From the NCBI RefSeq assembly GCF_040954645.1, contig NC_092807.1, positions 80,684,017-80,748,016 of the forward strand: a stretch of DNA of 64,000 nt. Reading direction: 5' to 3'. Both the position numbers and the translations under genes were made by a program. Position 1 is the first letter of the stretch, and each line of letters starts with the position of its first letter. The notes beneath the pieces are model-generated. The model saw only the letters and a program-made list of their open reading frames with translations, was not told the DNA's origin and made no database searches. Positions 58,738 through 61,864 of this stretch are shown here, one piece after another. Source of the DNA: Diabrotica undecimpunctata. Taxonomy: Eukaryota; Arthropoda; Insecta; Coleoptera; Chrysomelidae.

Positions 58738-60314
58738 ACAACGTTACCAAGAAAGATAGTTATCCTCTGCCTCGGATCGATGACACATTGGACACATTGG
58801 CTGGAAGTAAATTGTTTTCTACTTTGGATTTGAAGTCTGGATACTGGCAGGTAGAAATGGACCCGGTAGATAAAGAGAAGACAGCCTTCACCACAGGATC
58901 TGGATTGTGGCAATTCAACGTTATGCCATTTGGACTCTGTAATGCTCCTGCGACATTTGAGAGGCTTATGGAAAATGTGTTGAGAGGGTTATCTTGGAAA
59001 ACATGCCTGGTTTATCTAGATGACATAATCGTTTTGGGGGAGACATTCGAAAAACATTTGAAGAATTTAGAAAACGTTTTTAATCGACTTAAAGCTGCCC
59101 AATTGATGTTAAACCCCAAGAAGTGCCAGCTATTTCAAGGTAAAGTCAATTATCTGGGTCATATAGTCAGTAAAGAAGGAGTGGCCGTGGATAAGTGAAA
59201 AATTGATTCCATTAAGGAATGGCCAGTACCAACGGACAAACAAGTTAGAAGTTTTCTTGGACTATGTACTTACTACCGAAGGTTTATTAAGAAGTTTGCA
59301 GATATCGCTAAGCCATTAACGCGACTTATAGAGGAAGCAAGAGATTACCGCTGGGATACAGACTGCCAAAATGCCTTTGAGACCTTGAAAAAGCATTTAA
59401 TAACAGCACCAATTTTAGGGTATCCACTGCCAGAAGGAGAGTTCATCTTAGATACAGATGCAAGTAATGTGGGAATTGAAGGAGTGCTGTCTCAGATCCA
59501 AGGAGGACAGGAACGAGTCCTCGGATATTTTAGTAAAGTTCTTTCAAAACCTGCGCGGAATTATTACGTCACGAGAAGAGAACTTCTAGCAGTAGTTAAA
59601 TCAGTAGAGCACTTCTATCAATACCTCTATGGCAGAAAGTTTCTAATCCGAACCGACCATGCCGCCCTTAAGTGGTTGATGCAGTTTAAGAATCCAGAGG
59701 GTCAGATAGCCAGATGGATCGAACGACTCCAAGAATACGATTTCAAGATTGAGCACCGGGTCGGAGTTAGCCACATAAACGCTGATTCTCTTTCCAGAAG
59801 GCCATGCCCAGCAGAGTGTTCCCACTGCAACAAAACGGAACCCAAGGAAGCAGCAGTGCTAAGAACAACGATGGTCAACGACGACTGGACACCTACTAAG
59901 GTCAGAGAAGAACAAGAAAGAGATCCAGTTATACAGAAAATTCGAAAATGGAAAGAGGAAAACCGTCGACCACCTTGGCAAGAAATATCAAACCTATGCT
60001 CAGTAGTTAAGACGTATTGGGCCAAGTGGGACTCATTTATCATGGAAGATGGCTTGCTCAAACGAGTCCTGGAAAATAATGACGGTTCAGAGAAGAGAAG
60101 ACAGTTGGTGATCCCAAAGAGCAGAATAGCCGAAGTACTTCGTCAGTTACACGACAGTCCATCAGGAGGGCATTTTGGTGTAAAGAGGACCCTTCAGCGA
60201 ATTCGGGGACGGTTTTATTGGATGAACAGTTCCGACGATGTAAAAGACTGGTGTAAGAAATGTACTATTTGTGCTACGCGTAACGGGCCTTATCGAAAAG
60301 AGGAGCTCCTATGA
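58719..60314 (+). pseudogene. Gypsy pol: RT, RNase H and integrase zinc domain
   Basis: RT palm: DYRLLNNVTKKDSYPLPRID, FSTLDLKSGYWQVEMD (motif A), MPFGLCNAPATFERLM (motif B), LVYLDDIIVLGE (catalytic YLDD). A TGA at 59,197 interrupts it; the missing stretch (RSFLGLCTYYRRFI...) is present in frame after the stop. RNase H, 59,385 on: ILDTDASNVGIEGVLSQ, TRRELLAVV, IRTDHAALKWL and INADSLSRRP supply the D-E-D-D acidic residues. The integrase zinc-binding HHCC domain follows (HDSPSGGHFGVKRTLQRIRG ... CKKCTIC). A +1 shift at 60,310 leads into the next frame. Apart from the TGA and the shift, this part is intact. Confidence 0.93.
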
Positions 60315-61864
60315 GACAATATAATGTTGGAAGCCCGTTTGAAAGAATAGCTTTGGACATTGCAGGGCCATTTCCAGAAAGTGAAAATGGAGGCAAGTAC
60401 ATGTTAGTAGTAATGGATTACTTCACTAAGTGGGTCGAGATTTACGCACTTCCAGAGCAGAAGGCCGCCACCGTTGCAGATAAGTTGATCCAAGAATATA
60501 TCAGCCGATTTGGAGTGCCTTTGGGGATCCATAGTGACCAAGGCAGGAACTTCGAAAGCGATCTATTTCAAGGAATATGTGATAGACTAGGCATGAAGAA
60601 AACAAGAACTACGGCTTATCATCCGCAATCGGATGGTATGGTAGAACGGATGAATGGGACAGTGGGCAAGTATTTGACAAAGATGGTGTCCGATCATCAG
60701 CGAGACTGGGACCAATATCTTCCGTTCTTTACAATGGCCTATAGATCTGCTGTTAACGAATCAACAGGCCAGACACCAGCCAGGGTCCTATTCGGACGCG
60801 AAATGCGACTACCTTGTGATCTAGAGTTTGGGTGTCGACCTGGAGAAGATGTAGCAGGTGAAGATTATGTGATCGAGTTACGAAGAAGAATGGACGATGT
60901 ACATGAGTTGGTCCGTTCCCATCTTCAGATCGCTAGCGACCGAATGAAGAAACGGTACGATACACAAGCCGAAAAGGGTTGCTTTAAGAAGAACGACAAA
61001 GTCTGGCTCTATAATCCCAAGAAACGAAAAGGTTGTTCTCCCAAATTGCAGCAGTTTTGGGAAGGCCCATACTTAATTATGGAGAAGATCAACGATGTCA
61101 TCTACCGAATAAGCAAGATTCCGAGGGGAAAGCCGATGATAGTACACCATAACCGGCTGGCGTCTTTCGAAGGTGACCACGACGTAGATGAAGAAGTGGA
61201 AGTAAACCAAGTCCAAGATGTGTCTGACCTCACGTTTGAGGAATTCATGGGTGCCTATGGAGGTACCGGTAAAGCAAGACATGGTGTTACCACTGAAGAA
61301 AAGCAAGATCTACTCGCGCTCTCCGATGACTACTCGCTGGCCCTTGCCATCCCGGCCAGTATCAAAGACGCACCAGGGTTGGCATCCGTTTTTCGAAGGA
61401 AGTTCGGTCGAGTTGAAGAACTTCAATGTCAAGTGCCAGCTCCTGGGAAAGCCTTGAAACTCCAAGAAGCATCACGTTACCTTTTCTACCTGGTAACAAA
61501 AGACACTGCCCGTGACCAACCTACCTACCCAGATATATGGGAAGCCTTACTTCAATTGAGAGAGCACGTACTAGCGTCCGACGTGCAAAAGTTAGCTATG
61601 CCAAAGTTAGAGTGCCGCCAATTAGATTGGAGGGTTATCCGAAGTATAGTGGAAGAGATCTTTAGAGACACCGAAGTCCAGGTGTTAGTCTGTTGCAATC
61701 CGCATAGTTACTGGTGCGGAGAGAAAACCGTCCCTTGTCATTTTTATAAAACTGGAAGTTGTAAAAAAGGGTCTAGTTGTCGATACCAGCATACCGTTCC
61801 AGTTCTAGTCCCGACAAGGTTCCAGGAGGAACTATCTTTTAAGAGGGGGGCAATATTACGATAA
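60311..61864 (+). CDS. Gypsy integrase fused to a macrodomain and a CCCH zinc finger
   Basis: Uninterrupted 517-codon frame. Integrase core: Asp16 (ALDIAGPF), Asp76 (HSDQGRNF), Glu112 (GMVERMNG), with 35 residues between the last two, so the catalytic triad is complete. GPY/F module FWEGPYLIMEKINDVIYRI at 249-267. After an acidic linker, residues 330-461 resemble OARD1/TARG1-type macrodomains: QDLLALSDDYSLALA, GLASVFRRKFGRVEEL, RYLFYLVTK, TYPDIWEALLQLREHV, LAMPKLEC, IVEEIFRDTEVQVLVC. Lys397 aligns with the TARG1 catalytic Lys84, but the Gly-Leu-Asp loop with Asp125 is shortened and probably lost. A C-x7-C-x5-C-x3-H finger (476-494) follows. The start is an in-frame Met just after a frameshift. 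In the parent element this is the C-terminal part of pol. The frame ends inside the 3' LTR. Confidence 0.9.
   Translation: MRQYNVGSPFERIALDIAGPFPESENGGKYMLVVMDYFTKWVEIYALPEQKAATVADKLIQEYISRFGVPLGIHSDQGRNFESDLFQGICDRLGMKKTRTTAYHPQSDGMVERMNGTVGKYLTKMVSDHQRDWDQYLPFFTMAYRSAVNESTGQTPARVLFGREMRLPCDLEFGCRPGEDVAGEDYVIELRRRMDDVHELVRSHLQIASDRMKKRYDTQAEKGCFKKNDKVWLYNPKKRKGCSPKLQQFWEGPYLIMEKINDVIYRISKIPRGKPMIVHHNRLASFEGDHDVDEEVEVNQVQDVSDLTFEEFMGAYGGTGKARHGVTTEEKQDLLALSDDYSLALAIPASIKDAPGLASVFRRKFGRVEELQCQVPAPGKALKLQEASRYLFYLVTKDTARDQPTYPDIWEALLQLREHVLASDVQKLAMPKLECRQLDWRVIRSIVEEIFRDTEVQVLVCCNPHSYWCGEKTVPCHFYKTGSCKKGSSCRYQHTVPVLVPTRFQEELSFKRGAILR
61298..61693 (+). other. Macrodomain-coding segment (OARD1/TARG1-like)
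   Basis: Codes residues 330-461 of the integrase frame. Macrodomains bind ADP-ribose; TARG1-type ones remove it from proteins. The order of strand and helix motifs follows TARG1 from its GD-L start to its last strand. One of the two glycines of the ligand loop is kept (APGLA). The catalytic Lys is kept, the catalytic Asp apparently not. Confidence 0.78.
61736..61792 (+). other. CCCH zinc-finger-coding segment
   Basis: CHFYKTGSCKKGSSCRYQH: exact C-x7-C-x5-C-x3-H spacing with the typical G-x-C and aromatic residues of RNA-binding CCCH fingers. Confidence 0.9.
61841..61853 (+). promoter_or_regulatory. Polypurine tract
   Basis: AAGAGGGGGGCAA directly before the 3' LTR, the expected plus-strand primer site. 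It overlaps the end of the pol frame. Confidence 0.85.

Follow-up and report, generated by a model that had tools for sequence, protein, structure and literature searches.

We analysed a window of 64,000 nucleotides of Diabrotica undecimpunctata DNA (contig NC_092807.1, positions 80,684,017 to 80,748,016 of the forward strand). A long terminal repeat (LTR) retrotransposon occupies positions 55379-62348 of the window, and its last open reading frame (ORF) joins an integrase to a TARG1/OARD1-type macrodomain and a CCCH zinc finger (all coordinates are those of the window, and all features between the flanking duplications lie on the forward strand). The frame (60311-61864) is open across 517 codons and, as stated in an initial annotation made from the letters of the sequence, terminates within the 3' LTR, whose first base is 61854. 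Pfam recognised rve (residues 10-105), Integrase_p58_C (252-284) and zf-CCCH (472-494; E 9e-6, above its cut-off) in the encoded protein (P0001). The integrase core with the triad D16, D76, E112 (D-D-35-E) and its GPY/F module span 60311-61180, the macrodomain (residues 325-463, the range aligned in the fold match) spans 61283-61699, and the finger, C476-x7-C484-x5-C490-x3-H494 as first annotated, lies at 61736-61792. The nearest solved relative of the finger is CPSF30/CPSF4, a match that does not settle its gene of origin.

Residues 330-460 matched human OARD1/TARG1 in a sequence search (E 4e-21), and the structural model of the region matched the TARG1 fold, the closest macrodomain fold. The early description of about 130 residues of OARD1/TARG1 type was borne out by these two results, which rule out chance similarity. 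Lys397 (codon at 61499-61501) aligns with TARG1 Lys84. The loop that carries Asp125 in TARG1 is two residues shorter in the element, reads KLECRQLDWR (61604-61633) and lacks the catalytic Asp; the retained lysine and the shortened loop had both been noticed in the initial annotation.

The element is a Ty3/Gypsy-type LTR retrotransposon by its pol order and LTR features. The 5' LTR (TGTTACGA...TCGTAACA, 55379-55874) and the 3' LTR (61854-62348) are direct repeats flanked by the target-site duplication CTAG (55375-55378 and 62349-62352, from reading the flanks). They are 97.2% identical (13 mismatches and one gap over 494 columns), so this copy is old. A probable tRNA primer-binding site (TGGTGTCGGAAGTG, 55877-55890) was placed by its location after the LTR and its TGG start, and a polypurine tract (61841-61850, read from the sequence) lies within the ORF, 5' of the 3' LTR; the paired LTRs, this tract and the short target-site duplication are as expected of a Ty3/Gypsy LTR retrotransposon. 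Two interrupted gag pieces carry a SAP domain (55988-56332; Pfam PF02037, E 1.3e-6) and Retrotrans_gag (56568-56825; Pfam E 7e-5, slightly below the curated cut-off). The pol pieces comprise an aspartyl protease (57768-58265; Pfam E 0.001, below cut-off; 75% identity to the relative P0126), a segment in a different frame linking the protease to the reverse transcriptase core (58273-58737; tblastn with P0126), the reverse transcriptase (58719-59198; Pfam RVT_1, E 5e-37) and RNase H followed by the H2C2 zinc domain of the integrase (59385-60314; Pfam). Pfam found the order protease, reverse transcriptase, RNase H, integrase in the window pieces and in the relatives P0126 and P0222; the protease match was weak in the window and in P0126 and above cut-off in P0222. 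Because the pol frame continues into the 3' LTR, no space is left for the env gene that would mark an errantivirus or other env-bearing Gypsy element. Pfam gave no Chromo match at the integrase C-terminus of P0001, P0126 or P0222.

Alignment to P0126 takes the window pol through frames 3, 1 and again 3, this second time with one stop, and then into frame 2; the 517-codon frame is thus what survives of a broken pol at its 3' end. The H2C2 domain sits in the upstream ORF, in a different frame, and the relative L035 reads straight through the Met corresponding to Met1 of the 517-codon frame. Thus, the triad and GPY/F module are present as annotated but this copy has an incomplete integrase, and Met1 looks like a probable internal Pol codon. 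Similarly, gag and protease are broken, as had been proposed, but the damage is not confined to them and extends to reverse transcriptase and integrase.

Of 927 candidates examined in a search with residues 318-500, three proved to be relatives, namely Diabrotica virgifera LOC126893360 (86%), one contig (66%) and one chimeric Diabrotica model. A profile search gave 1269 matches among 3411 candidates, and the 120 listed included additional relatives of retroelement type, among them one from Brassicogethes aeneus, and many vertebrate OARD1 proteins. A third search gave 197 matches among 3673 candidates, and by name the 120 listed were 97 from Aromia moschata, 15 from Molorchus minor, one from Erysiphe pulchra and 7 others, four of these 7 being ORFs of 1339-1377 amino acids. 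P0126 and P0222 hold protease, reverse transcriptase, RNase H, integrase and CCCH finger in one co-linear order (Pfam). The named hosts apart from Erysiphe belong to Chrysomelidae, Cerambycidae and Nitidulidae. Many related Gypsy elements in several species carry the fusion, and a single-copy oddity is ruled out by those found in the protein searches and in the source genome. An artefact, whether chance similarity or a chimeric assembly of host gene and element, is extremely improbable: the same junction recurs in several species and in all of the 150 best-scored copies of the source genome, and we found no point in its support. A scan of viral contigs for relatives gave 65 pattern matches, none of which was confirmed.

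Several database entries are noted in passing. The Erysiphe pulchra protein P0128 (contig of 5369 bases) resembles P0241 and may reflect insect contamination or horizontal transfer. P0223 and other Molorchus minor models are transposon Pol fragments publicly labelled 'Cleavage and polyadenylation specificity factor', probably due to the CCCH finger, and Diabrotica fragments of the element carry the public name 'OARD1-like'. In P0004 (Diabrotica virgifera LOC114337827) the macrodomain is interrupted by a stretch that by eye resembles a mariner-type transposase.

The catalytic positions were compared in 129 family members (9 comprising P0001 and members from the first two protein searches, and the 120 listed in the third), leaving out the truncated or chimeric P0004, P0016 and P0036; the counts are dominated by Aromia. 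Lys occupies the Lys84 position in 128 members (Arg in P0012) and Asp the Asp125 position in 123, while the four finger residues are retained in 128, 129, 128 and 126 (pattern C-x7/8-C-x5-C-x3-H). Outside Aromia and Molorchus there are 17 rows, 11 with both catalytic residues, 5 without Asp and 1 without Lys. Asp is lacking in P0001, P0002, P0003, P0006 and P0126, which share the two-residue deletion, and in P0198, an Aromia copy with Gly. As P0126 is a full-length ORF, the Asp-less form is present in undamaged elements. Since most aligned relatives retain Lys and Asp, ADP-ribosyl hydrolysis by this pair was probably the ancestral activity of the element macrodomain. As described in PMC9411070, Lys84 of TARG1 attacks the ribose and is activated by Asp125; the account in PMC7050489 adds that a mutant of the acidic residue (written Glu125 in that review) traps a covalent intermediate. 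The initial suggestion that the domain binds rather than hydrolyses ADP-ribose is possible, but it does not hold as the sole reading, as DarG, which retains the lysine alone, is described as still reversing DNA ADP-ribosylation, on thymidine (PMC7050489, PMC9411070).

In the source genome (G000, 1.74 Gb), 5811 places passed a first look with the window domain as query; scoring covered the best 150, each of which matches over the full 193 amino acids at 91% or more and is free of stops. The subfamily of the window (A) is approximately 89% identical to the D. virgifera protein. A second subfamily (B), approximately 41% identical to the window, was assembled from 11 loci obtained with an OARD1 query and 30 obtained with P0008 (41 loci, 40 places). 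Lys is kept and the loop reads LECRQLDW in 30/30 subfamily A loci, while the subfamily B loci carry Arg at the Lys position and keep Asp. LTRs were sought at the ends of ten A copies, nine of them picked from long open frames, so that the sample leans young, and pairs were located in eight. Five pairs are identical across 389-440 aligned bases, and the remaining three differ at 2/433, 2/440 and 7/391 positions; a 4-bp target duplication, mostly ATAN, flanks six of the eight. The family transposed recently.

Other copies differ in structure. The gag/pol border was compared in four of them (L093-L096, 401 bp each). In three, whose pol frame has 1422 codons, gag carries a CCHC knuckle and is read in a different frame from pol. 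The one examined with an 1814-codon frame has no knuckle; its gag and pol share a single frame, and its LTRs are identical. Frames of 1799-1847 codons occur in 22 of the 150 scored rows (the best 150 of 5811); a knuckle-less gag-pol variant, in which the CCCH would be the sole RNA-type finger, may have multiplied. The A copies L017, L018 and L019 (G000:C1:103.06-103.09 Mb) lie at 17.5 kb spacing and are probably a segmental duplication. The B locus L038 (G000:C2:68898774-68899196) carries macrodomain and finger after an unrelated coiled-coil-like N-terminus in a 274-codon frame, and may be a recombinant or a solo domain that was captured. The row G000:C4:98908505-98909062 and similar ones, approximately 50% identical to P0008 and matching over 558 rather than 564 bases, may be a further subfamily or A copies. 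The window itself is rich in old transposons; by eye, the ORFs at 146-1084, 28087-29052, 31674-33002 and 35618-36238 resemble long interspersed nuclear element proteins (reverse transcriptase or RNase H) and transposases of the piggyBac and mariner types. At 15555-15833 a 139-bp unit occurs twice in tandem without a mismatch, and neither an Rfam nor a tRNA scan gave a match in the window.

Among the 150 places scored with the OARD1 query, L031 (G000:C3:100934206-100934631) ranked first. This separate open frame of 760 amino acids retains Lys and GCGLD and has no finger, and we take it as the host OARD1-like gene. Its N-terminal part is long and charged, and by eye the first macrodomain seems to be followed by another, degenerate one. 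In a tree of 31 macrodomains one branch splits 23 retroelement rows from 8 host OARD1 rows (87/90; 86% of 200 bootstraps), and the beetle host gene lies on a long branch. A single capture event is likely. The proposed capture of a host domain is supported by the finger-less host-like frame in the same genome, with moderate tree support (87/90); the source would be an OARD1-like gene. No close Gypsy relative free of the macrodomain was identified among the elements found. Trees of integrase and macrodomain from ten elements agree on the A pair and on the groups X and Y, while subfamily B falls with X in the integrase tree (92/91) and weakly with A in the macrodomain tree (67/38). Because of this difference, the residue changes in A and B may be independent.

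In the scheme that we favour, the Pol polyprotein ends, as it does in undamaged relatives, with the TARG1-type macrodomain and the CCCH finger, and the captured macrodomain would travel with the integrase and bind or remove ADP-ribose on integrase, gag, complementary DNA (cDNA), RNA or nearby chromatin. Host ADP-ribosylation would then no longer block expression or integration of the element, and the finger would contribute RNA contact. The ancestral domain would have been a Lys/Asp ADP-ribosyl hydrolase, and that of the Asp-less subfamily of the window either an ADP-ribose reader or a DarG-like hydrolase using lysine alone. We judge the chances that such a Pol handles ADP-ribose for the element to be about even. 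A module protecting or guiding the integrase complex is favoured because of the Lys-only, DarG-like arrangement and because Drosophila PARP-1 is reported to occupy and silence copia and gypsy (PMC3964218); the macrodomain would be an ancestral eraser, altered in two ways in the source genome.

A number of observations weigh against this scheme. The window copy itself is broken, and its protein has no Pfam Macro match. Both subfamilies inspected in the source genome miss one of the two catalytic residues, which makes activity uncertain here. In nine relatives, identity to the window is 43-65% for the macrodomain and 63-83% for the integrase, so the macrodomain is the faster-changing part, and its excess of silent change is modest, being seen in one pair (Fisher p 0.027). 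Among shared variants of 26 A copies, the ratio of non-synonymous to synonymous change (pN/pS) was 0.04 in integrase, 0.11 in macrodomain and 0.12 in finger; the corresponding values for 40 B copies were 0.15, 0.30 and 0.58, indicating weaker constraint in B; the loci were chosen by macrodomain score, which biases the macrodomain and finger values downward, towards constraint, and the counts are small. The place shared by L033 and L043 was counted once, and the likely segmental duplicates L018 and L019 were removed, although including them gave nearly the same result. The faster evolution, the loss of one catalytic residue in each subfamily and the weak constraint on B would all suit a decaying neutral leftover, retained merely through its position upstream of the polypurine tract. 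This is nevertheless very unlikely: relatives no more than 40-55% identical retain an open frame, the Lys, the glycine loop and the cysteines of the finger, the corresponding substitution ratio (dN/dS) between the window and seven other A copies is 0.28-0.44 in the macrodomain (0.05-0.18 in the integrase), and the macrodomain is present in the scored copies of two high-copy subfamilies, of which A moved recently.

The loss of one catalytic residue in each subfamily, while the A model keeps the fold, would also suit a non-cleaving domain that binds ADP-ribosylated chromatin (such as active genes or breaks marked by PARP) and directs the integration complex to it. The macrodomain stands at the C-terminal side of the integrase and, by analogy, the chromodomain is generally known to hold this place in chromoviruses, which are themselves Ty3/Gypsy elements. 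Both residues are present in 11 of the 17 rows outside Aromia and Molorchus, more than a pure tether would require, and the target duplications seen are mostly ATAN; we consider this explanation possible, with a clear inclination against it. Alternatively, the domain might remove ADP-ribose from the cDNA ends or RNA of the element, where it would otherwise block strand transfer or translation. TARG1 is described as taking ADP-ribose off nucleic-acid ends, and DarG as acting on DNA thymidine with lysine alone (PMC7050489, PMC9411070). The Lys-only pattern holds in 30/30 subfamily A loci, and the domain is carried on a DNA-handling enzyme. Subfamily B, by contrast, has Arg at the lysine position, and we know of no demonstration of nucleic-acid ADP-ribosylation as a defence against insect transposons; repair of this type is unlikely. 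Its more specific form, by analogy a Lys-only DarG-like enzyme of the subfamily stripping ADP-ribose from its own cDNA or RNA, is quite unlikely; if true, ADP-ribosylation of transposon nucleic acid would be a defence used by insects, and a retrotransposon would have evolved the antidote to that mark.

Our preferred reading thus remains protection or guidance of the integrase complex by an ADP-ribose module. A host domain on an integrase can show which host pathway matters to the element. The TARG1-type macrodomain is retained in elements from several beetle families and is present in high-copy, recently moved copies. This points to ADP-ribosylation acting on retrotransposons, and ADP-ribose marks may therefore play a part in the conflict of insects with their transposons. 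The natural variants with both residues, Lys only or Asp only are material for testing selection for erasing against selection for reading.

Compared to TARG1/OARD1 (C6orf130, the ALC1-like macrodomain class), the domain of the element is fused to an integrase and a CCCH finger, and the subfamily of the window lacks Asp125 and two loop residues. DarG of DarTG, approximately 20% identical, is a bacterial antitoxin without integrase, and subfamily A is likewise Lys-only. Fish epsilon-like endogenous retroviruses are also LTR retroelements that gained a macro domain; according to the citing description (Basta et al. 2009, cited in PMC4977317), these vertebrate retroviruses have it as additional ORFs. 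The best viral fold match to the window macrodomain was Kadipiro virus VP8 (BFVD A0A8E0KJF2; E 3e-15, 33% identity, root-mean-square deviation 7.0 across 152 columns), a protein of another virus group and possibly another capture of a TARG1-type domain. Chromoviruses share with the beetle element a chromatin-type reader domain at the same integrase end, but the beetle element has a macrodomain and CCCH finger there and no Chromo match. Among the matches listed in literature searches, none described an insect Ty3/Gypsy element with a macrodomain or a macrodomain joined to an integrase, and only the remark on fish endogenous retroviruses in PMC4977317 came up. Retroelements with captured host domains are known, and we regard the fusion of integrase and macrodomain in an insect Ty3/Gypsy element as new among them.
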